This document shows positions 6,121 through 34,984 of a DNA stretch of 40,094 nt, in pieces. A program made the translations under genes and the position numbers. Each line of letters starts with the position of its first letter. Positions within the stretch are counted from its first letter, which is position 1. The DNA comes from a virus: positions 1-40,094 of the IMG/VR virus record IMGVR_UViG_3300042923_000412, one strand, 5' to 3'. The notes under the pieces were generated by a model. That model saw nothing but the letters and a program-made list of their open reading frames with translations, was not told the DNA's origin and ran no database searches.

Positions 6121-6520
6121 AGGAGGGGCAGAGCCATTTTCCCCTATGCCGCAACAATCCATTGGACAGGCAAATCAAAGTGCTCCGGTCCAACAGTATG
6201 CGCCGACGGCACAGCAATATACAATCCCCCCTATGCAATACGCAGTTAACCAAACACCTACCAACCCTGCTCAACAGATCCAACAGCAGTCCGATCAAAC
6301 GATGGTACCACCGCAACAGATGGTGCCGACTACCCATACCTCACAAGCATATACACAGGATCAGATCGCTGTGGCAATGACTGCTTTGTGTGATGCTGGT
6401 AAGGTACCAGCCGTTATGGGTATCCTTTCACAGTTTGGCGCTGAAACGCTAATGCAGGTACCTAAGGAGCAGTATTCTGCACTGGTAACCATGCTCCGGG
6501 GGGTAGGTGCGAATATCTAA
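6038..6520 (+). CDS. Early phage protein with Pro/Gln-rich linker
   Basis: 160 aa starting ATG after TAAGGAGG. It has an N-terminal helix (EGLEKAILQLAQAVAG), a long Pro/Gln/Tyr/Thr-rich disordered stretch (about 30-108), and a C-terminal helical domain (DQIAVAMTALCDAGKVPAVMG...). The stop overlaps the start of the DUF2800 nuclease by one base (TAATG). Its constant place just before the nuclease and ssDNA-binding protein suggests a replication or recombination accessory, with the flexible linker tethering two parts. Function unproven. Confidence 0.7.
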   Translation: MEVIVKIQGTEGLEKAILQLAQAVAGNKGGAEPFSPMPQQSIGQANQSAPVQQYAPTAQQYTIPPMQYAVNQTPTNPAQQIQQQSDQTMVPPQQMVPTTHTSQAYTQDQIAVAMTALCDAGKVPAVMGILSQFGAETLMQVPKEQYSALVTMLRGVGANI

Positions 6521-7713
6521 TGAAAGAAGAAAGGGACCACGCGCTGCTATCAGCATCCAGCGCCAAAAAATGGCTTAACTGCCCCCCTTCTGCGAGATTA
6601 GAGGACTTGTTTCTAGACGAGTCCTCCAAAGCTGCAGACGAAGGAAGTTTAGCCCATTCCATTTCGGAATTGAAGCTTAGAAAGACATTTGTAGAAGTAG
6701 CAATGACGGATAGAAGCTACAAGGCCAAGCTTAATAAGTTAAAAAAGGAAACACTGTATCAGGATGAAATGGAGAGGTATACCGACGCATATGTTGATTA
6801 CGTGTCAAAGATTGCATACTCTTTCCCGACTAGCCCCTATGTAGCAATAGAGAAGAAAATCGACTACAGCAACATTGCTCCGGAGGGGTTTGGTACCGCT
6901 GACTGCGTGATACTTTACGGGTCGGAATGCCATGTAATCGATTTTAAATATGGTAAAGGAGTACCCGTAAAAGCAGAAGCCAATCCGCAGTTGGCACTAT
7001 ACGCACTTGGTGTTTTACTCGCCTATAAAGCCTTCTATCCAATCGATAAAATTACTCTTCACATTGTACAGCCTAGATTAGATAACTTTTCTTCCTGGGT
7101 AACTAATGCTGCTGAATTAACTACCTGGTCAGAAATAGTGGTCAAGCCTGCAGCACTGCTTGCCTTTGAAGGTAAAGGGGAGTTTAAGCAAGGTACATGG
7201 TGTGATGATTGCTTCTGCAGAGCTGCAGCCACGTGTAAGCATAGAGCTGACACCAACATGGAGCTATTAAAATACGAGGGTGCAGAGCCGCCGAAGTTGT
7301 TATCTAATCTAGCGGTCGGTGAAATACTTGAAAAGGCCCAGTTCCTTGCAAAGTGGGTGAAAAAATTAGAAAATTATGCGCTTGATCAGTTGGTAAAGGG
7401 TAACGAGATTTACGGATGGAAAATCGTCGAAGGAAGAAGTAACAGAGTTATACAAGACATAGACGCTGCTTTTGAAGCGTTGGTTACTGCAGGTTATGAT
7501 AAGGCTCTTTTATATGAGAATAAACCACTTGCTTTAACAGCGGTGGAACAGCTAATAAGTAAGGAAGATTATGAAAGCGTGCTTTCAAAGTACATAGCTA
7601 AACCGCAAGGGTCACCTACGCTTGCGTTGTACGGTGATAAACGCCCTGAAATGAAACTTAAAACAACAGCTGCAGAGGATTTTGGCGGCGACAATCAGTA
7701 CAAGGAGGAATAA
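6520..7713 (+). CDS. DUF2800 Cas4/RecB-like PD-(D/E)XK exonuclease
   Basis: A 397-aa protein of the DUF2800 family, PD-(D/E)XK fold. Visible features are an N-terminal Cys in the ASSAKKWLNCPPSARL segment, the catalytic core GFGTADCVILYG then HVIDFKYGKG (Asp and D-x-K), the Q-aLYALG helix typical of RecB/Cas4 nucleases, and a distal Cys cluster (WCDDC.C......CKHR, about 227-240). The separated Cys suggest a Cas4-like iron-sulphur cluster. It probably resects phage DNA ends for recombination-dependent replication together with the ssDNA-binding protein immediately downstream. Confidence 0.87.
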   Translation: MKEERDHALLSASSAKKWLNCPPSARLEDLFLDESSKAADEGSLAHSISELKLRKTFVEVAMTDRSYKAKLNKLKKETLYQDEMERYTDAYVDYVSKIAYSFPTSPYVAIEKKIDYSNIAPEGFGTADCVILYGSECHVIDFKYGKGVPVKAEANPQLALYALGVLLAYKAFYPIDKITLHIVQPRLDNFSSWVTNAAELTTWSEIVVKPAALLAFEGKGEFKQGTWCDDCFCRAAATCKHRADTNMELLKYEGAEPPKLLSNLAVGEILEKAQFLAKWVKKLENYALDQLVKGNEIYGWKIVEGRSNRVIQDIDAAFEALVTAGYDKALLYENKPLALTAVEQLISKEDYESVLSKYIAKPQGSPTLALYGDKRPEMKLKTTAAEDFGGDNQYKEE

Positions 7714-7718
7714 TTTTT

Positions 7719-8588
7719 ATGAGTACAGTTACTACAGGAAGAGTTAGATTTAGTTTTATGAATGTATTTACACCAAGAGCACCTCAGGAGGGCGGGGAGC
7801 CCAAATATTCTGTAACACTCCTAATTCCTAAATCAGAGTATGCAACGATCCAAGCAATTCAACAGGCTATGGAAGCGGCAGTCCAGGAAGGGATTACAAC
7901 AACATTTGGGGGAAGCCGACCACCTAGGCTTAATCTTCCGCTGTATGACGGCGACGGTGTGAGACCTTCTTCGGGAGAACCATTCGGGGAAGAGTGCAAA
8001 GGTCATTTTGTTATGACCGCTTCCTCCCTTCAGCAGCCCTCGATCGTTGACGTTAACGTTCAGCCAATACTTAACCAAGCGGAAATGTACAGCGGTTGTT
8101 TTGGCAGAGCCTCTCTTCGTTTCTTTGCCTACAATAAAAACGGTAACAAAGGAGTGGGATGCGGGCTTGGTAACATTCAAAAACTTTCCGATGGCGATCC
8201 ACTAACGGGCCGTACTACGGCTGCAGATGATTTCGGGGGAGCAAATTCATATGGCCAAAATCAAGCAGCCCAATTTAAACCTCAATCCTATCAAGCCCCT
8301 GTGCAATCCCCAGGAGGATATGGCATACCACAACCGCCTGCTACGCAGTACCAGGATCCGGGGTGGTACACCCAAGGTGGAGTAATGCCGCAATCTCCGG
8401 CAGCGTATGGTACCCCCCAACAGCCCGCAGCTTCAAATAATTATCAAGCACAGCCATATCAGCAACCTAATGGGGCCTATGGTGCTCCTGTGCAACAACC
8501 GGCACAACAATACCAAGCACAATATAGTCAACCAATTAATCCTGTTACCGGATTACCCATGAACACCGGAGGAGTGATGGGAATTTGA
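7719..8588 (+). CDS. DUF2815 single-stranded DNA-binding protein
   Basis: 289 aa. Residues 1-160 match the DUF2815 pattern (GRVRFSFMNVFTPRA, then PKYSVTLLIPKSE, then RPSSGEPFGEECKGHFVMTAS), a phage OB-fold-type ssDNA-binding family that normally travels with a DUF2800 nuclease and a family A polymerase, as here. The C-terminal 120 residues are Gln/Pro/Tyr/Gly-rich and disordered, like the flexible tails of bacterial SSB that recruit partners. Its stop TGA overlaps the TTG start of the polymerase. Confidence 0.85.
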   Translation: MSTVTTGRVRFSFMNVFTPRAPQEGGEPKYSVTLLIPKSEYATIQAIQQAMEAAVQEGITTTFGGSRPPRLNLPLYDGDGVRPSSGEPFGEECKGHFVMTASSLQQPSIVDVNVQPILNQAEMYSGCFGRASLRFFAYNKNGNKGVGCGLGNIQKLSDGDPLTGRTTAADDFGGANSYGQNQAAQFKPQSYQAPVQSPGGYGIPQPPATQYQDPGWYTQGGVMPQSPAAYGTPQQPAASNNYQAQPYQQPNGAYGAPVQQPAQQYQAQYSQPINPVTGLPMNTGGVMGI

Positions 8589-10549
8589 GGACCTTGTCCA
8601 TCGACTTAGAAACATATAGTAGTGTAGATCTAAAAAAGTCCGGACTGTACAAATATGTACAGTCTTCGGATTTTGAAATTCTTCTATTTGCTTATTCTTA
8701 CGACGGTGAAGCCGTCCAGGTAATCGATCTTGCCCAAGGTGAAACAATCCCTATATCTATAATAATGGATTTAGGAAATTCGGAAGTAATAAAGAAAGCA
8801 TTCAACGCAGCTTTTGAGTTCTATAGCCTCAGTAAGTTTTTTGCGACTCATATAGATCAATGGCGCTGTACTATGGTCCACAGTTTATACTGCGGTTATC
8901 CCGGCAGCCTAGATGGCGCTGGTAAAGCTCTAAAGTTTTCCTCGGATAAAAGAAAAATGGCAGAGGGTAAGGCTTTGATTAAATATTTTTGTTTACCATG
9001 CGCCCCTACGAAGCGGAACGGTGGTCGAATAAGGAATTTACCGAAGCATGAACCTGCCAAATGGAATTTATTTAAGGAATATTGTAAGCAGGACGTTGTT
9101 ACGGAGATGGAAGTAGAACGTGCCCTTTTAGCGTATCCGGTACCGGATATGGAGTGGAGGCTTTGGCAGGTCGATCAACAGATCAATATCCATGGTGTAA
9201 CACTTGATATGAACATGGTAAACGGTGCACTGGCAATAAATGAATACATGGCAACCGAGCTAACGGATAAAGCAAAAGATATTTCCGGCCTTGATAACCC
9301 CAATAGCGTAGCACAGTTAAAAGCATGGATTGAAGCGCAAGCAGACATTGAACTGGAAGGACTAACAAAACAGACGGTAGCAGAGCTTCTCGCAAATAAG
9401 ACCGGTAGTGAGGAAGTGCAGACGCTACTGCAGATCAGACAAGAAATGGCGAAAGCCAGTGTTAAAAAATATAACGCTATGTTATCAGCTGTTTGCAGTG
9501 ATAATCGGGTAAGAGGGTTACTGCAGTTTTATGGAGCCAACCGTACCGGCAGATGGGCCGGACGTTTAGTACAGGTTCAGAACCTCCCTAGAAATTACCT
9601 GGAGTCATTAAATACCGCAAGAGAGCTGGTCAAGAATCAAAATATCCAAGCACTCAAATTGATATACGGAAATGTACCAGATACGCTTTCTCAATTAATC
9701 CGTACAGCGTTCATTCCGGAAGTTGGCCACGAATTTGCAGTAGCAGACTTTAGTGCCATAGAAGCTCGAGTGATCGCCTGGCTTTCCGGAGAAGAGTGGA
9801 GGCTTGATGTATTTCGTACTCATGGCAAAATCTATGAAGCTTCAGCTGCAGCGATGTTCGGGGTACCGATTGAATTAATAAAGAAAGGCAATCCGGAATA
9901 TGAATTGCGCCAAAAAGGAAAAGTCGCAGAGCTTGCGCTAGGGTACCAGGGGTCAAGTGGAGCACTAATTCAAATGGGTGCCTTGAAAATGGGGCTTGCT
10001 GAAGAAGATCTTCCGGATATCGTAAGACGTTGGCGGGGTTCCAATCGGCGAATTGTTGACTTTTGGTACAGTGTGGAGCAAAGAGCAGTTGAGTGCATAA
10101 AATATGGCGTTGTTTCATCCTTACCACACGGGATCACTTTTACCAGGGATGAGAATAGGCTCATGATCATACTTCCTTCTGGAAGAAAGTTATTCTATAT
10201 ACAACCTAGATTAATACCAAATGAGAGAGGTTTTGAGTCCATTTGGTTTATGGGACAGAATCAAACAAATAAGAAGTGGGAATCAATACAGACATACGGC
10301 GGTAAGTTGGTCGAGAATATTGTGCAAGCAGTAGCTAGAGACTGTCTTGCTTACTCTATTATTAACCTTCACGCTGCCGGTTATAAAATAAATTTTCATA
10401 TACATGATGAAGTAATAACGGAAATTCCTATTATGGGAACCCAAAGCCTTGATGAAGCTGTAAGTATAATGTGTCAAACAGCTCCCTGGGCGCAGGGCTT
10501 ACCGCTTAATGCGGACGGATTTACCGGAACATATTACAAGAAGGAGTAG
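8585..10549 (+). CDS. Phage DNA polymerase, family A
   Basis: 654 aa replicative polymerase. It has an N-terminal 3'-5' exonuclease domain (SIDLETYSS at residues 5-13; CKQDVVTEMEVERAL near 165) and a family A polymerase domain with motif A DFSAIEARVIAWLSG (about 388), motif B RQKGKVAELALGYQGS (about 441) and motif C IHDEV (about 606). All catalytic Asp residues are present. The start is TTG with GGAGGAG upstream, overlapping the preceding stop by four bases. It replicates the phage genome with the primase-helicase that follows. Confidence 0.96.
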   Translation: MRTLSIDLETYSSVDLKKSGLYKYVQSSDFEILLFAYSYDGEAVQVIDLAQGETIPISIIMDLGNSEVIKKAFNAAFEFYSLSKFFATHIDQWRCTMVHSLYCGYPGSLDGAGKALKFSSDKRKMAEGKALIKYFCLPCAPTKRNGGRIRNLPKHEPAKWNLFKEYCKQDVVTEMEVERALLAYPVPDMEWRLWQVDQQINIHGVTLDMNMVNGALAINEYMATELTDKAKDISGLDNPNSVAQLKAWIEAQADIELEGLTKQTVAELLANKTGSEEVQTLLQIRQEMAKASVKKYNAMLSAVCSDNRVRGLLQFYGANRTGRWAGRLVQVQNLPRNYLESLNTARELVKNQNIQALKLIYGNVPDTLSQLIRTAFIPEVGHEFAVADFSAIEARVIAWLSGEEWRLDVFRTHGKIYEASAAAMFGVPIELIKKGNPEYELRQKGKVAELALGYQGSSGALIQMGALKMGLAEEDLPDIVRRWRGSNRRIVDFWYSVEQRAVECIKYGVVSSLPHGITFTRDENRLMIILPSGRKLFYIQPRLIPNERGFESIWFMGQNQTNKKWESIQTYGGKLVENIVQAVARDCLAYSIINLHAAGYKINFHIHDEVITEIPIMGTQSLDEAVSIMCQTAPWAQGLPLNADGFTGTYYKKE

Positions 10550-10554
10550 GAGCT

Positions 10555-12984
10555 ATGCTAAATGACAGAAAAGTAAAAATCGCCGTGGCCAACAGTAGAA
10601 AAGCTACAAACTGGATAACCCAGGAGCTCCTTTGGTCGGCTATGGTACAGAAGCTTTCCGTACCAGAAAGGCATCCTGAAACACATGCAGAATATAAATC
10701 CTACCCGAAGTCAAAACAGGACGAATTAAAGGACGTAGGCGGGTTTGTAGGCGGCGAGCTGAAGGAAGGTAAGCGCCGTAACGGTCACGCCTTAAGTAGA
10801 CACTTAGTTACTCTTGATGCAGATAACATAGCTCCTGGTGGTACACAAGCAATTATAAATGCCGTAGATGCTTTGGGCTGCGGTTACGCAATTTATTCGA
10901 CTAGAAAGCATGAAGGTGCAGCTCCAAGGCTACGAATTATCTTTCCACTAGATGTACCTTGTTCAGCTGATGAGTATGAACCAATTGCTAGAAAAGCGGC
11001 TAGTTTTTTAAACCTAAGTATTTTTGATCCTACAACATTTGAACCGGTAAGACTAATGTACTGGCCAAGTATTAGTAACGACAGTGAGTATGTATTTGTT
11101 TATGGGGATAAGCCATTTTTAAGTAAAGATGGAATGCTAAGTTTATATACAGACTGGCGAAACGTTTCAGAGTGGCCAGAGCTTCCTGGTGCCGCAAAGA
11201 TTAGAGATAGATCCGCTAAGAAGCAAGGTAACCCATTAGAAAAGCAGGGTATCGTAGGAGCTTTTTGCAAAATCTATGACGTGCCTGCAGCAATAGATAA
11301 ATTCCTTATAGGTGTATATGAGCTGTGTGAGGGAGATCGTTTTACATATACAGAAGGATCAACTGTTGGAGGAGCTGTTCTCTATGATAACGGTAACTTT
11401 CTTTTCAGCCACCACGGAACGGATCCAGCAAGTGGAAAGCTGTGTAATGCATTTGACCTCGTTAGATTACATCTATTTCAGGATCAGGATGATGAAGCAA
11501 AGCCCGATACACCGGTAACTAATCTTCAAAGCTTTAAATCGATGTGCGAATACGCTTTAGGAGATCCTGAAGTATCTAAGATAGTAAGTATAGAACGCTA
11601 TGAAAAGGCCCAGGAAGAATTTACGGATTCAAGGTTTAACCAAGACCTAACGACAGAAGAAAAACCGAATATGGACTGGCTAGGAAAACTTAAATGTAGT
11701 TCACAGACGGGACTACCTAACAAGACGATTGATAATGTACTCATCATCTTAGAAAACGATCCTAAGTTAAAAGAGCGCTTCTATCATGATGAATTTGGTA
11801 ATAGAGCAATAGTTGCCTCCCCGATGCCCTGGGAAAACGGTAGCACAAAGAATTTTAAACAGAGAGCTTGGTCCGACGAGGACGACGCGGGCCTTAGGCA
11901 CTACATTGAGAAAGTTTACACGATCACGGGTAAAGAACGTATCTACGACGCCGTAGCAGTTTATGCTACAGCGCGAAAAAGGCATAAGCTAAAGGAATAT
12001 CTTGAATCTTTGAAGTGGGACAATGTACCCCGTGTAGACAGGCTTCTAATTGACTACTTTGGCACAGAGGATAACGAATACAGCCGTATGGTCATTCGTA
12101 AGACTTTAACAGCTGCCATTGCTAGAGTAATAAATCCAGGAGTGAAGTTCGATAGTATGTTAATTCTTTCAGGAGCACAGGGTGTAGGTAAAAGTACTTT
12201 CTTTAGCATATTAGGTAGGGAGTGGTATTCCGATAGTTTAGCAACCTTTGAGGGCAAGGACGCTTCTGAATTAATACAAGGGTATTGGATTGTTGAAGCG
12301 GGAGAATTAACAGGTTTTAATAAGTCAGAAATGAATGCAGTCAAACAGTTTTTAAGTAAGAGAACAGATATATATCGAGTGCCATACGGAAGGCGAACAG
12401 CTGAATTTCCTAGAAGCTGTATTATTGTTGGTACCACAAATGATAAAGAGTTTCTTAAGGACCGTACAGGTAATCGAAGGTTTTGGCCCGTAGATTTGGG
12501 TGTGCAGCAATCAGTTAAAAACGTTTTTAAACAACTACCAGAGGAAGTGGATCAGATATGGGCGGAAGCTTTTATGCGTTACCGGATTGGAGAAAAGCTT
12601 TACCTGGAGGGAACTGTTGCAGAAGAAGCAATGAGACAGCAAGAAGAGCATAAAGAATCAAATCCTAAGGAAGGTATTATTAAAGCGTTTGTAACAAGGA
12701 AAGTACCTGCGGACTGGATGAGAAGAGATTTAAGTGCAAGAAGAATCTTTTGGGGAAGTGAATTTAAGGACGAGGCTTCTTTAGTTGAACGAGATAGGAT
12801 CTGTGCTGCTGAAATATGGTGTGAGTGTTTTAATGGAGATCTTAAGCTTATGAGAAGATCTGATGCAGTTGAGATTAATGGTATCCTATCTGAAATAGTA
12901 GGATGGGAAAGAACGCAAGGGGCTTTAAAATTTGGTAATTTCTATGGTGCGCAAAAGGGATTTGTTAAAAGTTTTCAAAGGTAA
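10555..12984 (+). CDS. Primase-helicase: AEP-like N-terminus plus VapE/VirE helicase
   Basis: 809 aa. The N-terminal third has an archaeo-eukaryotic primase-like core (HLVTLDADNI about 84-93; STRKHEGAAPRLRIIFPLD about 116-134; DPTTFEPVRLMYWPS about 160). The C-terminal half is the VapE (virulence-associated E) P-loop ATPase: Walker A GAQGVGKST (about 540), Walker B IVEAGEL (about 580), then GTTNDKEFLKDRTGNRRFWPVD (sensor/arginine finger). Such proteins unwind and prime at phage origins. The repeat-rich region directly downstream is probably its origin. Five bases separate it from the polymerase. Confidence 0.93.
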   Translation: MLNDRKVKIAVANSRKATNWITQELLWSAMVQKLSVPERHPETHAEYKSYPKSKQDELKDVGGFVGGELKEGKRRNGHALSRHLVTLDADNIAPGGTQAIINAVDALGCGYAIYSTRKHEGAAPRLRIIFPLDVPCSADEYEPIARKAASFLNLSIFDPTTFEPVRLMYWPSISNDSEYVFVYGDKPFLSKDGMLSLYTDWRNVSEWPELPGAAKIRDRSAKKQGNPLEKQGIVGAFCKIYDVPAAIDKFLIGVYELCEGDRFTYTEGSTVGGAVLYDNGNFLFSHHGTDPASGKLCNAFDLVRLHLFQDQDDEAKPDTPVTNLQSFKSMCEYALGDPEVSKIVSIERYEKAQEEFTDSRFNQDLTTEEKPNMDWLGKLKCSSQTGLPNKTIDNVLIILENDPKLKERFYHDEFGNRAIVASPMPWENGSTKNFKQRAWSDEDDAGLRHYIEKVYTITGKERIYDAVAVYATARKRHKLKEYLESLKWDNVPRVDRLLIDYFGTEDNEYSRMVIRKTLTAAIARVINPGVKFDSMLILSGAQGVGKSTFFSILGREWYSDSLATFEGKDASELIQGYWIVEAGELTGFNKSEMNAVKQFLSKRTDIYRVPYGRRTAEFPRSCIIVGTTNDKEFLKDRTGNRRFWPVDLGVQQSVKNVFKQLPEEVDQIWAEAFMRYRIGEKLYLEGTVAEEAMRQQEEHKESNPKEGIIKAFVTRKVPADWMRRDLSARRIFWGSEFKDEASLVERDRICAAEIWCECFNGDLKLMRRSDAVEINGILSEIVGWERTQGALKFGNFYGAQKGFVKSFQR

Positions 12985-13225
12985 CTTTCTACTAAAAAGG
13001 TAACTGTCTATAATTGTAAAAGGTAACCAAGGTAACTTACGGTAACTTTCAAAAGTTACCCCTCAAAGCCTTACGGCATAAGGGTTTAAGGCTTGGGTAA
13101 CTAAGGTAACTTTCTTTTATATAATAATATAAATATAAAGGCAATAAGGGCACGTGTACCCCTGTGTACCCCTGTACGCGTATATATACATAGTAATATA
13201 GGGAATTAAAGTTACCAAAGTTACC
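12980..13225 (+). repeat. GGTAAC iteron array with A/T-rich segment: probable replication origin
   Basis: Ten copies of GGTAAC occur in 246 bases. Seven are direct (starts 12980, 12999, 13022, 13031, 13041, 13096, 13105), several extended to GGTAACTTTC, and three are inverted (GTTACC at 13055, 13211, 13220). Between them are nested inverted repeats (AAGCCTTA 13066 with TAAGGCTT 13087; CCTTA/TAAGG inside), a nearly pure A/T stretch at 13111-13140, and a tandem GTGTACCCCT at 13154 and 13164. There is no plausible gene. Iterons plus an A/T-rich unwinding element directly after the primase-helicase gene fit a phage origin. Confidence 0.68.
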
Positions 13226-13247
13226 GCCCGATATTTAGGAGGTCAAA

Positions 13248-13583
13248 ATGCTTGAAAAAGAGTTGGAAAAGAAATTTATAGAAAAGGTAAAAGCTGCAGG
13301 AGGAAAGGCGTTCAAGTTTGTCTCTCCTGGCAATGACGGTGTACCCGACAGGCTTGTTGTTTTACCTGGAGGCCGTATCGGATTTGTTGAGCTAAAGCGG
13401 AGAGGGAAGAAACCTACCAAGTTACAGGCGAAGCAGATTGAAAGATTAAAGGAATTAGGGTGCCTGGCTTGTGTACTTGATCGACCAGAGTCAATAGACG
13501 CAGTTATTTGTGCGATACAGCAAAACACAGACAATCAGAGGGAAATAGTTTGGGACATACTTAAAACAGGTGGATTGCTATGA
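13248..13583 (+). CDS. VRR-NUC domain nuclease
   Basis: 111 aa, the stand-alone VRR-NUC fold (PD-(D/E)XK type). The N-terminal Glu helix (LEKELEKKFIEKVKAAGG), GNDGVPDRLVV (catalytic Asp, about 29-38) and GFVELKRRGKK (E-x-K, about 45-54) are intact, followed by the QxxQxxrL-like helix. Phage VRR-NUC proteins are structure-selective nucleases acting on branched DNA and sit next to an SNF2-type helicase as here. ATG after AGGAGG; the last bases overlap the helicase start (ATGA). Confidence 0.92.
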   Translation: MLEKELEKKFIEKVKAAGGKAFKFVSPGNDGVPDRLVVLPGGRIGFVELKRRGKKPTKLQAKQIERLKELGCLACVLDRPESIDAVICAIQQNTDNQREIVWDILKTGGLL

Positions 13584-14953
13584 AGTTTGTTCCCCACGAT
13601 TATCAGCGGTACTGTATAAACCGGTTAATAGCAGAGAATATGCTTGGGCTATTCTTAGACATGGGCCTTGGAAAAACAGCAATTACTTTAACAGCCGTAA
13701 ACGATCTAAGATATAACCGTTTTCAGGTCAGGAAGGTACTGGTAATTGCACCAAAGAAGGTGGCAGAAGATACCTGGACAAGAGAAGTAGATAAGTGGGA
13801 TCACCTGAAGCTGTTACGTGTTATTCCGGTTCTCGGAACAGAGAAGAAGCGTATTAAGGCTTTAAATTCACCAGGAGATGTGTACGTGTTAAGCCGTGAT
13901 AATGTTCAATGGCTTGTTGAATATTATCGCAATAGCTGGCCGTTTGACATGGTTGTTGTTGATGAGCTATCAAGCTTTAAAAACCCTTCAGCTAAAAGAT
14001 TTAAAAAACTGTGCCTGGTACGTCCGCACATTAAACGGATGGTAGGATTAACTGGCACACCAGCGCCGAATGGCTTAATGGACCTATGGGCACAGGTATT
14101 TTTACTAGATTCAGGACAAAGGTTAGAGAGTACAGTGTCAGCTTACCGAGAACAATACTTTCAACCGGATCAGCGAAACAGAGAACGAGTATTCACATAC
14201 ATGCCAAAAATCGGAGCAGAGGACTTGATCAATCAAAAAATTAAAGATATTTGCATTAGCCTTTCTGCCAAGGACTATTTGACTCTTCCGGACCGCATAG
14301 ATAATGTCAGGTACATAAAGCTGGATGCGAAAGCGCAGGCGAGGTACGACGAGCTGCAGCGCGAAATGCTTCTTGAAATCGACGAGACTACAATCGATGC
14401 AGGATCCGCCGCGGTCTTATCAAACAAGCTTCTGCAGCTGTGTAACGGAGCTATTTACGACGAGGGCAGAAACGTTATTGAAATACATGATAATAAGCTA
14501 GAAGCTTTCATGGAGATTGTCGAGGCAGCGCAAGGTAAACCACTACTTGTCTTTTATAATTTTCAGCACGACCTGGCACGGCTACAAAAGATATTATCAA
14601 AAACAGGTCTTCGTATTTCAGAGCTTAGGAATCCGCAGAGTATTGATGCCTGGAATAATAAACAGATTGACGTGCTGCTTGCGCATCCAGCGAGTGCTGC
14701 GTACGGATTAAATTTACAAGCAGGAGGGAACATAATCGTTTGGTACGGGCTTACCTGGTCCCTGGAGCTATACCAACAAGCGAATGCGAGACTTTACAGG
14801 CAAGGGCAGACCGAGGCGGTTATTATTCACCATTTGGTTGTTGCAGGGTCTATGGACGAAGAGGTTATGGGAGCACTGGAGAATAAAAGGGTTACACAAG
14901 ATGATCTACTAAATGCCTTGAAGGCGCAGATTCGGAAAGTTAGGGAAGGGTGA
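13580..14953 (+). CDS. SNF2-family DEAD/DEAH helicase
   Basis: 457 aa superfamily 2 DNA translocase. Motif I is DMGLGKTAI (about 27-35), motif Ia VLVIAPKKV, motif II VVDELSSFK (DExx, about 126), motif III GLTGTPAPN (about 155), and motifs V/VI ...GLNLQAGG and QQANARLYRQGQ (about 398-409). It lacks extra nuclease or methylase domains. It is co-translated with VRR-NUC, a pairing very common in Firmicutes phages, suggesting joint processing of recombination or replication intermediates. Confidence 0.95.
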   Translation: MKFVPHDYQRYCINRLIAENMLGLFLDMGLGKTAITLTAVNDLRYNRFQVRKVLVIAPKKVAEDTWTREVDKWDHLKLLRVIPVLGTEKKRIKALNSPGDVYVLSRDNVQWLVEYYRNSWPFDMVVVDELSSFKNPSAKRFKKLCLVRPHIKRMVGLTGTPAPNGLMDLWAQVFLLDSGQRLESTVSAYREQYFQPDQRNRERVFTYMPKIGAEDLINQKIKDICISLSAKDYLTLPDRIDNVRYIKLDAKAQARYDELQREMLLEIDETTIDAGSAAVLSNKLLQLCNGAIYDEGRNVIEIHDNKLEAFMEIVEAAQGKPLLVFYNFQHDLARLQKILSKTGLRISELRNPQSIDAWNNKQIDVLLAHPASAAYGLNLQAGGNIIVWYGLTWSLELYQQANARLYRQGQTEAVIIHHLVVAGSMDEEVMGALENKRVTQDDLLNALKAQIRKVREG

Positions 14954-14957
14954 TGTC

Positions 14958-15203
14958 GTGGAAGAAAATTATTACGCACTGCTAATCTGCATACTGAAAC
15001 CGGTAACCATTGAACAGGGTTTTGACTTGTTGGAGGGGCATATATCCAATAGATACAATTTGGCTATAACAGGAGAGGATATTGAGGACATGATCCGAAT
15101 GAAACAGCAGGGTATGACTTATCGTGAGATTGGATCCTATTATGGCATAAGTGAAGAAGCTGCTTATCGAAGAATAAAACGATATAAGGCAAAGAAAGGA
15201 TGA
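14958..15203 (+). CDS. Small HTH protein
   Basis: 81 aa from a GTG start four bases after the helicase stop. The C-terminal half contains a helix-turn-helix of the sigma-70 region 4/resolvase type (EDIEDMIRMKQQGMTYREIG, then YYGISEEAAYRRIKRYKAKK). The N-terminal half is hydrophobic and helical. It may be a transcriptional regulator of middle genes; no closer assignment is possible. The next gene overlaps its stop (ATGA). Confidence 0.7.
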   Translation: MEENYYALLICILKPVTIEQGFDLLEGHISNRYNLAITGEDIEDMIRMKQQGMTYREIGSYYGISEEAAYRRIKRYKAKKG

Positions 15204-15382
15204 TACGTATGTTGAAAAAAACAGATGGAATTAATATCGATATAGAGAATTATCAAGGTATACCACTTCCAACGAAGCATGGAAGTGAAGTTTTTAATAG
15301 TCTCCCGGTAAAAAATAATAACGGGATAGTATCGAATCGGAAAGGTCCTGATAAGAGCAAGAAGGGAGCGCTAAAAACATGA
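15200..15382 (+). CDS. Small basic phage protein, unknown
   Basis: 60 aa whose start overlaps the previous stop (ATGA) and whose end overlaps the next start, so it is in a tightly coupled run of genes. The sequence is polar and basic (KKTDGINIDIENYQG, VSNRKGPDKSKKGALKT) without a recognisable fold. A second in-frame start candidate is the ATG four codons in. Confidence 0.55.
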   Translation: MIRMLKKTDGINIDIENYQGIPLPTKHGSEVFNSLPVKNNNGIVSNRKGPDKSKKGALKT

Positions 15383-15618
15383 AAAATACATTAGGTGATT
15401 TGAATAATCATTTATTTGCACAGCTGGAGAGGCTGGGTGATGAAGAATTAACAGGTGAAGAGTTGCATGAGGAGATTACGAGAGCGAAAGCGATTAATGA
15501 TGTGGCATCACGAATCATAGCAAATGCTAATACAGTCCTACAAGCAAAAAAAGCAACGCAGGATTTTCTTGAGGAATACGGTGTTGAAGGTAAATTGCCT
15601 AAGATGCTGGAGGGGTAA
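15379..15618 (+). CDS. Small helical phage protein upstream of HNH
   Basis: 79 aa, predicted all-helical and acidic: NTLGDLNNHLFAQLERLGD, then ELHEEITRAKAINDVASRII, then ANTVLQAKKATQDFLEEYG. This pattern is familiar from many Firmicutes and proteobacterial phages, where the family lies just before HNH endonuclease genes and is annotated only as hypothetical. ATG start with AAGGGAG. Function unknown. Confidence 0.7.
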   Translation: MKNTLGDLNNHLFAQLERLGDEELTGEELHEEITRAKAINDVASRIIANANTVLQAKKATQDFLEEYGVEGKLPKMLEG

Positions 15619-15619
15619 T

Positions 15620-16258
15620 ATGAACAGAATTTACACCGAGGAGCATAAGCAGTTTATCAGGGATCACGTAGCCAATAGACAGTTTCCAGAGCTTACAGAA
15701 ATGCTGAATATACATTTTGGCACTAACTTTGAAGAGTCAGCAATAAAGAGCTTGGTTTATAGACTTGGTCTTAGCAATGGGTTAAGTGGAGTGAACCTTA
15801 GCAAAGCTGGAATAGAACATCGTTTTCAGAAGGGACACATTCCAGCTAACAAGGGAAAGAAAGGTACTGGAGGATGGGAGCCAACGCAGTTCAAGAAGGG
15901 AAGCATACCGCCTAATCGAAGGCCAATAGGATCCGAAAGAATTGATTCAAAAGACGGATATACTTATGTGAAAATACAGGACGGGCACCTTAATAAAAAC
16001 TGGAAGCAAAAGCATGTATTACTTTGGGAAGAACAAAACGGACCTGTACCAAAGGGAAGTGTAATAATCTTCGGGGATGGTAACAAACTTAATTTTAATC
16101 CGGATAATCTAATCCTTGTTACCCGCGCACAACTTGCAAGACTTAATCAGTTAAAGCTGATTCAAGACAGTACAGAATTAACCAGAACGGGATTAGTAAT
16201 TGCGGATATAGCAAATAAGATTGGCCAGAGGAGGAAAAAGCACTCCGGTCAGAGCTGA
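15620..16258 (+). CDS. HNH endonuclease (homing type)
   Basis: 212 aa. Residues 1-55 form a helical DNA-binding region (YTEEHKQFIRDHVANRQFPEL). The middle has the NUMOD-like KGHIPANKGKKG and FKKGSIPPNRRPIG loops, and the C-terminal half is an HNH_3 motif: KHVLLWEEQNGPVPKGSVIIF, then GDGNKLNFNPDNL. ATG start two bases after the preceding stop with GGAGGGG. HNH proteins of this type are homing nucleases or terminase helpers. Placement away from terminase favours a free-standing homing or recombination role. Confidence 0.9.
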   Translation: MNRIYTEEHKQFIRDHVANRQFPELTEMLNIHFGTNFEESAIKSLVYRLGLSNGLSGVNLSKAGIEHRFQKGHIPANKGKKGTGGWEPTQFKKGSIPPNRRPIGSERIDSKDGYTYVKIQDGHLNKNWKQKHVLLWEEQNGPVPKGSVIIFGDGNKLNFNPDNLILVTRAQLARLNQLKLIQDSTELTRTGLVIADIANKIGQRRKKHSGQS

Positions 16259-30794: not shown

Positions 30795-31841
30795 ATGGCA
30801 GGTACATGGACCAGTCAAAATAAGATTTTACCAGGCGCATATGTGAACTTTCTTACCAATGCCCCTTTAGCTATTACCCCAGGAGACAGGGGAACCGTGG
30901 TATTGTTACAAGAAATGAGCGTTGGCACCATTGGTAATATGTATACAATTACCGCAACCGATCCAAGCGAGTATCCGGCAGGTGTTACGGCCAGTGATAA
31001 GCTCCTTGTGAATGAAGCTTTAAAAGGTGCTAAAACAGTCATTATCTATAAGCTGCCAGCATCGCATGATGATGAGGATATTGAGGCAGCTCTAACAGCT
31101 CTTAAGACAGTTAAGTTTAACACTTTATGTTATCCTTATCCGGCTTCTTCACACGCTGCCAATCAGGCAGCTATCCAGGCATGGGTTGAAGCTATGAGGG
31201 ATGATGAAGGTGTTAAAATACAAGCTGTGCTTGCGGAGCACGTAGGAGACAGCGAAGCGGTTATCAATGTGGCAATGGGTGTTTTACTATCCGATGGCAC
31301 TAATCTTACACCAGCTCAAACCACGGCATGGGTGGCAGGTATGACAGCAGGTGCCAATGTTAATAAGTCTAATACAGGTCAAGGCTACGTTGGCGCTGTG
31401 GACGTTGTACCAAGAATGACTAAATCGGAGATGGAGGCAGCAATAACAGCTGGCAAGTTCATCTTTAAGGTAAATTCTGCACAGAATGTTACGGCTGTTT
31501 ATGATATCAATTCCTTAACTACTACAACAGTGGATAAGGGCGAAGTATTTAGAAAGAACAGAGTAATCCGTACTATTGATGGAATTAACAACGATATAAC
31601 CGAAATTTTCGAGAGTAATTATGTTGGTAAAGTTAATAACAATGATGATGGTAGGTCTATCTTAAGGTCTACATTGATTACATATTTTCTTGAACTGCAA
31701 GCCTTATCTGCTATTCAGAATTTTGTAGCTGAGGACGTTACTGTGTCAGCAGGAGTTAGTGGTGACTCTGTTGTAATTGATTGTCATATTCAGCCAGTAG
31801 ATAGCATTGAAAAGATTTATATTACCGTAAACCTATCTTAA
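30795..31841 (+). CDS. Tail sheath protein
   Basis: 348 aa, contractile sheath of the XkdK type. It opens GTWTSQNKILPGAYVNFLTN, then ITPGDRGTVVLLQEMSVG, with the typical GVTASDKLLVNEALKGAKTVIIYKL and the C-terminal SNYVGKVNNNDDGRSILRST, then EDVTVSAGVSGDSVVIDCHIQPVDSIEKIYI handshake strand. Its presence identifies the phage as a myovirus. Confidence 0.95.
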   Translation: MAGTWTSQNKILPGAYVNFLTNAPLAITPGDRGTVVLLQEMSVGTIGNMYTITATDPSEYPAGVTASDKLLVNEALKGAKTVIIYKLPASHDDEDIEAALTALKTVKFNTLCYPYPASSHAANQAAIQAWVEAMRDDEGVKIQAVLAEHVGDSEAVINVAMGVLLSDGTNLTPAQTTAWVAGMTAGANVNKSNTGQGYVGAVDVVPRMTKSEMEAAITAGKFIFKVNSAQNVTAVYDINSLTTTTVDKGEVFRKNRVIRTIDGINNDITEIFESNYVGKVNNNDDGRSILRSTLITYFLELQALSAIQNFVAEDVTVSAGVSGDSVVIDCHIQPVDSIEKIYITVNLS

Positions 31842-31860: not shown

Positions 31861-32337
31861 ATGGCGGATAATTATACCAGGCTAGCTGACACCATATCCA
31901 GCAAAGAGGGGCGGGCCTATATAACTATTAAAGGGTCAAATAGGTTGTTATTTGAGATATCAAGTCTTAAGGCGCAACTGGAATTGAACGTACAAGCCCG
32001 GCAAATGCTTGGGCACAGAATGACACAGCACAAAGTAATCGGTGCCGAGGGAACTGGATCCATGACAATGTATTTTATGAACTCGGAAATGCTTAAATTA
32101 GCAATTGAATACATAAACAATGGAACTTATGGTGGCTTGACATTACAAGTTATAAATGAAGATAGCCAATCCACAATTGGAAAGCAGGATATAACGCTTA
32201 ACAACGTTCTTCTGAACACGATTCCAGTGGCAACAATTGATGATCAGTCGGATGACCCAATCACAATTGATACAGATTTTACATTTGATTCTATCACAGG
32301 CAACAGTTATTTTGATAAACCTATTAATTTTAGGTAA
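31861..32337 (+). CDS. Tail tube protein (XkdM-like)
   Basis: 158 aa: DTISSKEGRAYITIKGSNRL, then RMTQHKVIGAEGTGSMTMYF, and ITIDTDFTFDSITGNSYF. This is the XkdM/DUF2001 tail tube signature. Stacked hexamers form the inner tube within the sheath. It follows the sheath as in PBSX, and a terminator follows. Confidence 0.92.
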   Translation: MADNYTRLADTISSKEGRAYITIKGSNRLLFEISSLKAQLELNVQARQMLGHRMTQHKVIGAEGTGSMTMYFMNSEMLKLAIEYINNGTYGGLTLQVINEDSQSTIGKQDITLNNVLLNTIPVATIDDQSDDPITIDTDFTFDSITGNSYFDKPINFR

Positions 32338-32388: not shown

Positions 32389-32790
32389 ATGAGTACATTA
32401 AAAGCATTTTTACACCCAGTTCAAGTATCAAACCAGGAAGTAGTTATATCAAATAGATTTATCGAAGACGGTAAGGTAGTACCCTTTGTAATTAAGCCAA
32501 TCACGCAGGAAGACAACAAACGGTTAATTACATTGTACACTAAGAAAGACAAGAAAGGCTCTGAATCCTTTAACCGTAATGAATACGTTTCTGCTCTTAC
32601 CGCAAGTGCAGTTGTGTTTCCAGACCTATCAAATGCCGAATTACAAAAAGCCTATGGGGTTATTGGCGAAACATCGTTACTGCACAAGATGCTGTTGGTT
32701 GGTGAATATGCAGACTTAGCGCAGGCTGTGCAGGTGTTAAGCGGGCTTGAAAAGGATATTAATGAGGATATTGAAGAGGCAAAAAACTAA
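32389..32790 (+). CDS. Tail assembly chaperone, short form (XkdN-like)
   Basis: 133 aa with the XkdN pattern (STLKAFLHPVQVSNQEVVIS, FVIKPITQEDNKRLITLYTKK, QVLSGLEKDINEDIEEAKN). It lies between tube and tape measure, the usual place of the chaperone that coats the tape measure. Its last sense codons are GCA-AAA-AAC directly before TAA, which form the slippery heptamer A-AAA-AAC for a -1 frameshift into the next frame. Confidence 0.92.
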   Translation: MSTLKAFLHPVQVSNQEVVISNRFIEDGKVVPFVIKPITQEDNKRLITLYTKKDKKGSESFNRNEYVSALTASAVVFPDLSNAELQKAYGVIGETSLLHKMLLVGEYADLAQAVQVLSGLEKDINEDIEEAKN

Positions 32791-32837
32791 TATTGCAAGG
32801 CGATGCAGAGTGTAATCTGGCTCACTTTGCCTTGCAA
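32781..32837 (+). promoter_or_regulatory. -1 programmed ribosomal frameshift signal
   Basis: Slippery heptamer A-AAA-AAC at 32781-32787 in the zero frame, then the stop TAA and five bases of spacer (32788-32792), then a perfect 9-bp stem TTGCAAGGC (32793-32801) with GCCTTGCAA (32829-32837). Heptamer, spacer and stem are all in the optimal arrangement for -1 slippage. Confidence 0.9.
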
Positions 32838-32978
32838 AAACTTCACATACTTCCATCAATACTGGCTACTATGGATACCCGAGAAAAAGCATTTGTATAT
32901 GCTAGTATCCAGTTGAGAGCAGAGGAAGAGAAGAAACAAGCAGCTAAATTAAAACCGAAAGGAGGTAGAAGAAGGTAA
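32787..32978 (+). CDS. Tail assembly chaperone, frameshifted C-terminal part
   Basis: After a -1 slip at 32781-32787, translation continues from CTA at 32787 for 63 codons, adding LILQGDAECNLAHFALQKLH, then LATMDTREKAFVYASIQLRA and a Lys/Arg-rich tail. The fusion is about 196 aa, like lambda gpGT. The frame has no good ribosome site of its own (a TTG at 32793 lies in the hairpin). The stop overlaps the tape-measure start (TAATG). Confidence 0.85.
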   Translation, partial: LILQGDAECNLAHFALQKLHILPSILATMDTREKAFVYASIQLRAEEEKKQAAKLKPKGGRRR

Positions 32979-34984
32979 TGTCTACGCTTAAGGCTACATT
33001 TATATTAAACGATGGGTATTCTTCTCGTATTGATAAGATTAATAAAAGAACCGATAATGCAGCAAAGAAGATATTGCAGGCCAGTGGAACAGCAGATAGG
33101 TTTAATTCAAAATTGAACGCCACCGGGGCAACGGCTTCTGGTGCTGCGAGCAAGATTGATAAGGCTGGTAGAGCCACACAAAACCTTAATAATAAACTGG
33201 CATCAACTGGACCAATTTCTTCTACCGCCAGCTCTGGACTAGGAAAGTTTATCAGCATGGCCGCTATGGTTGCTGGAGCGATAAAAGGCGCTGATATAAC
33301 TGACAACTATACTAATACCAATGCAAGGTTGAAATTAATTAATGATGGCCTCCAAACCCAAGAAGAGTTACAAAACAAAATTTTCGCAGCTGCTGACAGA
33401 TCAAAAGGTGCATATACGGATATAGCCGGAGCGATTTCAAAAATGGGTCTCCTCGCAGGCGACACTTTCGGGTCAAATGATGAACTTATTGGGTTCACAG
33501 AGTTGTTGCAGAAATCCTTTAAAGTCTCTGGTGCAAGTAACACCGAACAATCTTCCGCCCTTCTTCAATTAACACAGGCTATGGCTGCTGGGAAGCTCCA
33601 GGGAGATGAGTTTAGGTCCATCATGGAAAACGCTCCTATGCTTGCAGATGCCATTGCTAAATTTACAGGTAAAAGTAAGGGAGAGTTAAAGGAAATGTCC
33701 GCAGAAGGAACAATTACAGCGGATATCATCAAAAAAGCCCTGTTTGCAGCTAGTGACGATATTAACGCTAAATTTGCAGAGATGCCAATGACCTTTGGTA
33801 ACGTATGGAACAAGATAAAAAATGGCGGTATACGAGCATTTGAAAGCCTAATGAAAAGGGTTAATAAAATTATCAATTCGGATGGTTTCGAAGATTTTAC
33901 AGATGATATCATAAAAGGATTAAATTTAACTGCAAAGTTCGCAGGAATCGCCCTTAATGGTATGGAACGTATCTATAAATTCATGAATTCAAATTGGGAA
34001 ACCATAACAAACCTAATATTAGCAGGTGCAGCAGCATGGGGAGTCTACAGAACTGCTTTGATAGGTGTAACCGCTGTGCAGTGGATAGCTGCTTTAACTA
34101 ATCCTGTTACATTAGCTATTACCTTAGTTGCCTTGCTTGCAGCTGCATTTGTTTTGCTATGGGAAAAAAGCGCAGCATTTAGAGACTTTTGGGTTGAGAG
34201 TTGGTTAACAAACGCAAGGGTTATTATGGAGGCTTATAATTTTATTGCTGAAGCTTTTAACAACTTTAGGGACAATTGGAATCTGCTAATAGATACAATA
34301 TATTTGGGTGTATACGCCTTAGAAACAGGCATGAAAGCAGCCGTATTTATTACAGCTGCAGGCGTAAAGGGAATTATTAAGCTGTTAAGTAACTGGATAG
34401 ATACCATTGGTATAGCAGTAAAGGCTTACAATGCTGTTGCAAGTTTAACCGGTGGTAAAACAATAGATTTTGAAGTAACTGCAACTGATGTAAATAAGGC
34501 AATTGATACGGCTGCCGGAGATGCAGCAAGTAAAATAAGCGGTGCCTTTAGTGGAGTGAAAAGTACAATAGCTGGTGCTAAAATCGACAAGACCATAAAT
34601 CCTTTGGATGTAGATAAAGTTATGTCTGGCATGGACGCGATAGGCGCTAAAGTGAAGGACTTTACTGTATCAGGATGGCTAAAGGATGCCTTTGGAGAAT
34701 CTAAAAAGACTTTAGAAGATGTTCTTGGTGATGACAGTAACACGTTTACTGTAGAAGGAACTGGCGCTGATGGCAAACTCAAGGTCGATATGGCAGACGA
34801 GGACCTTAGATATCTTAGAGATATTGCAGAGAGGGACTATATTAATAAGATGAGCAATACAACACTTGCTCCTAATGTGCAGATTACCTTTGGTGATATA
34901 CACGAGACAGCGGATGTGTATGAAGTTGAGAACGAACTTAGAAGAATAATAAGAGAGCAAATTGCAGTAAGTGCGGAAGGGTGA
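32978..34984 (+). CDS. Tail tape measure protein
   Basis: 668 aa. The N-terminal region is a long helical Ala/Ser/Lys-rich stretch with the tape-measure domain (TEQSSALLQLTQAMAAGKLQ, then GDEFRSIMENAPMLADAIAK). Hydrophobic segments at about 345-400 (NLILAGAAAWGVYRTALIGV, LAITLVALLAAAFVLLW) could pass the host membrane during DNA entry. Length sets the tail at roughly 100 nm, using the usual 1.5 A per residue. No lytic domain is visible. Confidence 0.94.
   Translation: MSTLKATFILNDGYSSRIDKINKRTDNAAKKILQASGTADRFNSKLNATGATASGAASKIDKAGRATQNLNNKLASTGPISSTASSGLGKFISMAAMVAGAIKGADITDNYTNTNARLKLINDGLQTQEELQNKIFAAADRSKGAYTDIAGAISKMGLLAGDTFGSNDELIGFTELLQKSFKVSGASNTEQSSALLQLTQAMAAGKLQGDEFRSIMENAPMLADAIAKFTGKSKGELKEMSAEGTITADIIKKALFAASDDINAKFAEMPMTFGNVWNKIKNGGIRAFESLMKRVNKIINSDGFEDFTDDIIKGLNLTAKFAGIALNGMERIYKFMNSNWETITNLILAGAAAWGVYRTALIGVTAVQWIAALTNPVTLAITLVALLAAAFVLLWEKSAAFRDFWVESWLTNARVIMEAYNFIAEAFNNFRDNWNLLIDTIYLGVYALETGMKAAVFITAAGVKGIIKLLSNWIDTIGIAVKAYNAVASLTGGKTIDFEVTATDVNKAIDTAAGDAASKISGAFSGVKSTIAGAKIDKTINPLDVDKVMSGMDAIGAKVKDFTVSGWLKDAFGESKKTLEDVLGDDSNTFTVEGTGADGKLKVDMADEDLRYLRDIAERDYINKMSNTTLAPNVQITFGDIHETADVYEVENELRRIIREQIAVSAEG

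Follow-up and report, generated by a model that had tools for sequence, protein, structure and literature searches.

The virus sequence IMGVR_UViG_3300042923_000412 (40,094 bases, analysed at full length and called the window below) very probably makes its XkdN-like tail assembly chaperone in two forms by a programmed −1 ribosomal frameshift of the lambda G/GT kind. An earlier note on this DNA had proposed that such a shift joins two tail-chaperone frames. Comparative evidence strongly supports this proposal: the site is retained in 214 of 215 related junctions, the extension has been conserved as coding sequence, and selection on the stem goes further than the encoded protein requires. The slip site, the stop, the stem and the conserved extension can all be read from the sequences, together with selection on each of them. 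The kind of system is already known, and the details below concern its form in one large family.

The tail chaperone locus and its slip site

Integrase, terminase, SPP1-type portal and baseplate genes in the record mark it as a temperate contractile-tailed phage, and by its sequence the source is a contractile-tailed Firmicutes phage or prophage. A clostridial host is probable, since the nearest relatives lie in genomes of Sedimentibacter, Anaerocolumna, Anaerovorax and other clostridia. Besides the tail genes, a replication block at 6520-16258 encodes a DUF2800 nuclease, an Enc34-type ssDNA-binding protein, a family A DNA polymerase, a VapE-like protein, an SNF2-type helicase and an HNH endonuclease. 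The features of the tail region are:

30795-31841, + strand: contractile tail sheath (PF04984/PF17482)
31861-32337, + strand: tail tube protein, XkdM-like, upstream neighbour of the chaperone (PF09393, E=7.7e-37)
32389-32790, + strand: short form, predicted XkdN-like tail assembly chaperone, lambda gpG-like, 133 aa, C-terminus ...EEAKN
32764-32769, + strand: GAGGAT, candidate Shine-Dalgarno-like stimulator; its GAGG ends 13 nt before the heptamer
32781-32787, + strand: slippery heptamer A_AAA_AAC, zero-frame codons AAA AAC (from the sequence)
32784-32978, + strand: −1 frame extension, 64 aa, lambda T-like by position, predicted as fusion only
32788-32790, + strand: zero-frame TAA stop, abutting the heptamer without a gap (from the sequence)
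32793-32801, + strand: TTGCAAGGC, 5' arm of the putative stimulatory stem (MFE helix 32793-32803)
32829-32837, + strand: GCCTTGCAA, 3' arm of the putative stimulatory stem (MFE helix 32827-32837)
32978-34984, + strand: tape measure protein (PF20155 TMP_3, E=1.3e-50; phrog_1068, E=1.5e-130)

The open reading frame at 32389-32790 has a full-length match to the family PF08890 (Phage_TAC_5, E=1.5e-35) as well as a match to phrog_389 (E=1.4e-38), and a profile of its relatives matches the YqbN structure PDB 3klu (E=1.4e-19). On these matches we predict it to be an XkdN-like tail assembly chaperone. As in the lambda G/GT arrangement, the gene sits between the tail tube gene upstream and the tape measure gene downstream.

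The frame ends in GCA AAA AAC TAA (32779-32790), so that a heptamer of the X_XXY_YYZ type, as found in programmed −1 frameshift signals, lies in the zero frame. The earlier note had described this heptamer directly before the TAA, a perfect 9-bp stem with a 27-base loop five bases further on, and a −1 frame open through 63 codons up to the tape measure. The position of the site is exact to the base, the stem can be read directly from the sequence, and the codon number is correct when counting starts at the first codon after AAA. The motif itself is not significant, as the window has four copies of AAAAAACTRA when all frames and both strands are counted; the weight of the site comes from its frame, its position and its conservation. 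The two strands together carry 96 ORFs with 80 codons or more. When these are screened for a heptamer at most 10 codons from the stop together with a −1 extension of more than 26 aa, the chaperone ORF alone joins a slippery-type heptamer near its stop with a long −1 extension. Only one further long extension came up, next to an antisense AAACCCC, which is not a slippery site. An Rfam scan of 32500-33200 gave no match.

Conservation of the junction and of the −1 frame

A_AAA_AAC was found in frame in all 31 relatives collected first, which are 35-76% identical. The 17 loci from phage records cover Clostridioides, Geobacillus, Psychrobacillus, Streptococcus, Lactobacillus, Brevibacillus and Bacillus phages and faecal phage contigs; 16 of them also have it, and in these the stop lies at +0 or +3 nt and the −1 frame extends over 49-66 aa. 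We extended the survey to 215 distinct junctions from all loci collected, the phage records included, and grouped them by fixed spacing. An in-frame A_AAA_AAN followed by a −1 frame that is open for 30 aa or more is present in 214 of them, with C as the last heptamer base in 205, A in 7, T in 1 and G in 1, and the window carries the commonest form in the XkdN family, A_AAA_AAC TAA. The earlier note had named a disrupted heptamer in relatives with tails as evidence against the frameshift; we looked for such cases, and the near-complete retention of the site leaves the proposal standing.

The lone exception is phage EJ-1 (NC_005294). Compared with its near relative MismyG (2300-2330 in both loci, L123 versus L121), it has one additional A upstream of the heptamer, which merges both frames into a single ORF of 198 aa. 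This extra A may stem from an error in sequencing, or the fused allele may be natural, in which case it would abolish the two-product scheme. In two divergent relatives (L117 and L160), a run of nine A ends directly at the stop (AAAAAAAAA TAA/TAG), and at these junctions slippage may occur during transcription, instead of or alongside that of the ribosome.

Read from the slipped AAA, the predicted −1 product of the window is KLILQGDAECNLAHFALQKLHILPS...GGRRR (64 aa), and its TAA stop at 32976-32978 shares one base with the ATG of the tape measure gene (32978). This extension matches PHROGs 10943, 5646, 20560 and 33439. Against Pfam it gave no family, and its profile against the PDB yielded nothing but chance-like matches (a designed helical repeat, MNN9), so that we assign it no fold. 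An alignment of the extensions of 20 relatives contains 15 invariant columns, and the invariant residues begin at the slip codon itself (K1, I3, G6, D7). Across 228 close pairs, substitutions fall on the first, second and third −1 codon positions in 779, 376 and 2941 cases. Because they concentrate on the third position, the extension evolves as coding sequence, and the substitution pattern indicates purifying selection on it as a protein in this frame. A conserved open −1 frame thus continues from the site, as in known frameshift signals.

This pattern also bears on a re-initiation after the TAA, at TTG 32793 or ATG 32872, by which the −1 frame would be a separate small gene and the two proteins would be made independently. 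Stop/start coupling is common in phage operons, and a separate small ORF is annotated at this place in the Osiris, PBP180 and Abouo records. However, the −1 frame is conserved from the slip codon onwards, ahead of any possible start, and there is no conserved start codon near the stop. Neither would re-initiation need an invariant in-phase A_AAA_AAC, and we consider it extremely unlikely.

Putative stimulatory elements and the proposed mode of slippage

The heptamer is separated by the five bases TAATA from TTGCAAGGC, which is fully complementary to GCCTTGCAA. RNA folding lengthens this helix to 11 bp at −21 kcal/mol, with a z of −3.5 against dinucleotide shuffles, of which 1 in 200 was as good. 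A stem of 9-11 bp at 5 nt past the heptamer lies within the spacing of about 5-9 nt downstream that is looked for in a candidate stimulatory RNA structure. Because the region is coding, synonymous-codon randomisation served as the control for the stem in relatives. Against this control, the mean z over 81 clusters (<80% identity) is −2.07 (s.e.m. 0.21), and 54% of the clusters have a z below −2, with −2.38 for the window. In 73 sequences of the window's clade, pairing in the predicted register is 0.775 versus 0.678±0.012 with randomised codons (0 of 200 randomisations as high), and double changes in this register number 30, where 14.7±3.4 are expected. Five of six other registers are without excess, and one (sum 53) has a small excess without double changes. 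The strong stem is absent or weak at the same place in some subfamilies (PBP180 and KC5a types and relatives). In sum, these comparisons indicate that the stem is selected beyond coding needs, though it is not universal in the family.

A second element may act from the 5' side. Among 49 clade members whose residues match here, 45 use GAG for the Glu that lies 15-17 nt ahead of the heptamer, while the next two Glu residues towards the site have GAG in 2/45 and 9/49 and are mostly encoded by GAA. The GAGG 13 nt upstream is thus a possible Shine-Dalgarno-like stimulator, a candidate specific to the clade. The dnaX frameshift likewise has a Shine-Dalgarno-like stimulator 5' and a stem 3' of its site.

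For the proposed ribosomal frameshift, most ribosomes would read through AAA AAC and stop at the TAA that follows directly, releasing the 133-aa chaperone. A minority would be held by the stem, and perhaps also by the GAGGA element, so that tRNA-Lys and tRNA-Asn could slip back by one base in tandem from AAA AAC to AAA AAA; these ribosomes would bypass the TAA and append 63 further residues. The chaperone domain would then be common to both forms. By analogy to lambda gpGT, the extension of the long form would recruit the tail tube protein, presumably the XkdM-like product of the neighbouring gene, which would polymerise around the tape measure. We infer that the slippage is ribosomal rather than transcriptional, and the same holds for its efficiency and for the roles of both products.

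For transcriptional slippage, the long form would come from an altered mRNA in which RNA polymerase adds or drops an A within the A6 run. Such runs can slip, seven junctions have A7 or longer, and A-rich consensus motifs are common at several kinds of prokaryotic frame transition (PMC3711429). On the other hand, the run has nearly always exactly six A in one reading phase with C next (205/214), and phase and C matter for tandem tRNA slippage but not for the polymerase. In addition, an RNA stem at the distance of a ribosomal stimulator is under selection. The + strand of the window contains 33 runs of at least six A without surroundings like those of the slip site. We therefore regard transcriptional slippage as very unlikely; it fits the evidence less well than tandem ribosomal slippage, as does re-initiation.

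One published finding counts against tandem ribosomal slippage at this site: A_AAA_AAC induces far less shifting in E. coli than A_AAA_AAG does (PMC5009743). The weaker heptamer may be suited to a long form made in low proportion. Lambda gpG and gpGT are made at about 30:1, and neither product is found in the virion (PMC5009743). In tests of HK97-like tail chaperone frameshift genes, values of 6-7% were obtained (PMC3711429). The XkdN of phiCD508 was absent from virions by mass spectrometry (PMC11948020), which fits the expectation for an assembly chaperone.

The abutting stop and known systems

The contact between slippery site and stop codon had been called unusual in the earlier note, and here our data disagree. 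The zero-frame stop follows immediately in 166 junctions and one codon later in 48 (of 214; 166 of all 215), and at the cluster level in 68/81 and 13/81, respectively. In the window's clade, a single base toggles the stop, as the −1 codons CTA ATA give TAA at once, while the alternative CGA ATA A gives GAA TAA and thus a stop one codon later. Where the first −1 codon is of the CTN type (161 cases), CTA or CTG is used in 157, whereas in the rest of the same genes these two account for 46% of CTN codons, and CTA alone for 12%. By clusters the figure is 59/63 (p=1.8e-15, a guide only, since the sequences are related). Because CTA and CTG are preferred here, the stop appears to be kept by selection next to the site, and on these counts the abutting stop is the norm of the XkdN family. 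In contrast, the frameshifted genes of the SEA-PHAGES training set, most of them for tail chaperones, have a mean site-to-stop distance of 26 nt (PMC10885494), compared to 0 or 3 nt in the XkdN family, and the window is like its own family. As a side observation, the first −1 codon never ends in T in the 214 junctions (CTT 0/161, CGT 0/44), though both codons are common elsewhere. T at the third position would give TTA or GTA as the last zero-frame codon, so the short form may avoid ending in a hydrophobic residue.

In a termination-coupled variant of this mechanism, the selected stop would be a working part of the signal. Ribosomes past AAC would pause there with their A site on the stop codon; slippage would then compete with the binding of release factor, whose activity would set the ratio of short to long form. 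Both the CTA/CTG preference and the short site-to-stop distance relative to the training set are in line with this variant. However, 48 junctions, mostly from the window's own clade, have the stop one codon later with all else kept, and a clean C-terminus of the short form is a plainer reason for an early stop. Moreover, TAAT is expected to terminate efficiently and would not favour pausing. We consider the variant rather unlikely, and it is similarly doubtful that a fixed shift-or-stop decamer, A_AAA_AAC_TRA, operates with participation of the stop across Firmicutes contractile phages. Independent of this, the selected stop position and the single-base toggle in one clade offer a natural series on the effect of a stop codon on −1 slippage.

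With lambda gpG/gpGT and its relatives (reviewed in PMC5009743), the locus shares the order of tail tube, chaperone, −1 extension and tape measure, an in-frame XXXYYYZ near the chaperone end and an extension without its own start. It differs from lambda in the heptamer (A_AAA_AAC instead of G_GGA_AAG), the zero-frame stop abutting it, the contractile tail and a chaperone of another family (XkdN-like). Within the PF08890 family, which includes PBSX XkdN and B. subtilis YqbN (PDB 3klu), 214 of 215 junctions have the same site/stop arrangement and we found no difference. E. coli dnaX shares an A-rich heptamer (A_AAA_AAG), the 3' stem and the 5' Shine-Dalgarno-like stimulator, but it is a cellular gene in which the shift shortens the product, and it has AAG instead of AAC. 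SPP1 gp17.5/17.5* is likewise a Gram-positive phage tail chaperone with a putative −1 site (PMC6316719); it differs in its heptamer UUUUUUC and its non-contractile tail.

The heptamer itself is not new, since a tentative AAAAAAC site was seen in one Paenibacillus phage chaperone (PMC6003738) and A_AAA_AAC in the haloarchaeal virus HCTV-2 (PMC5009743). For the XkdN/PBSX chaperone, we found no description of a frameshift in the open literature, though Xu 2004, Baranov 2006 and Pell 2013 may mention one. For a large family of phages and phage-tail-like particles, the predicted frameshift gives a correct gene model in which a single gene has two products. In the annotated records that we examined, the short protein alone appears, sometimes under the name portal or hypothetical protein. 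In PP767789, MZ983385 and OL774875 the chaperone is labelled 'portal protein', apparently a misannotation.
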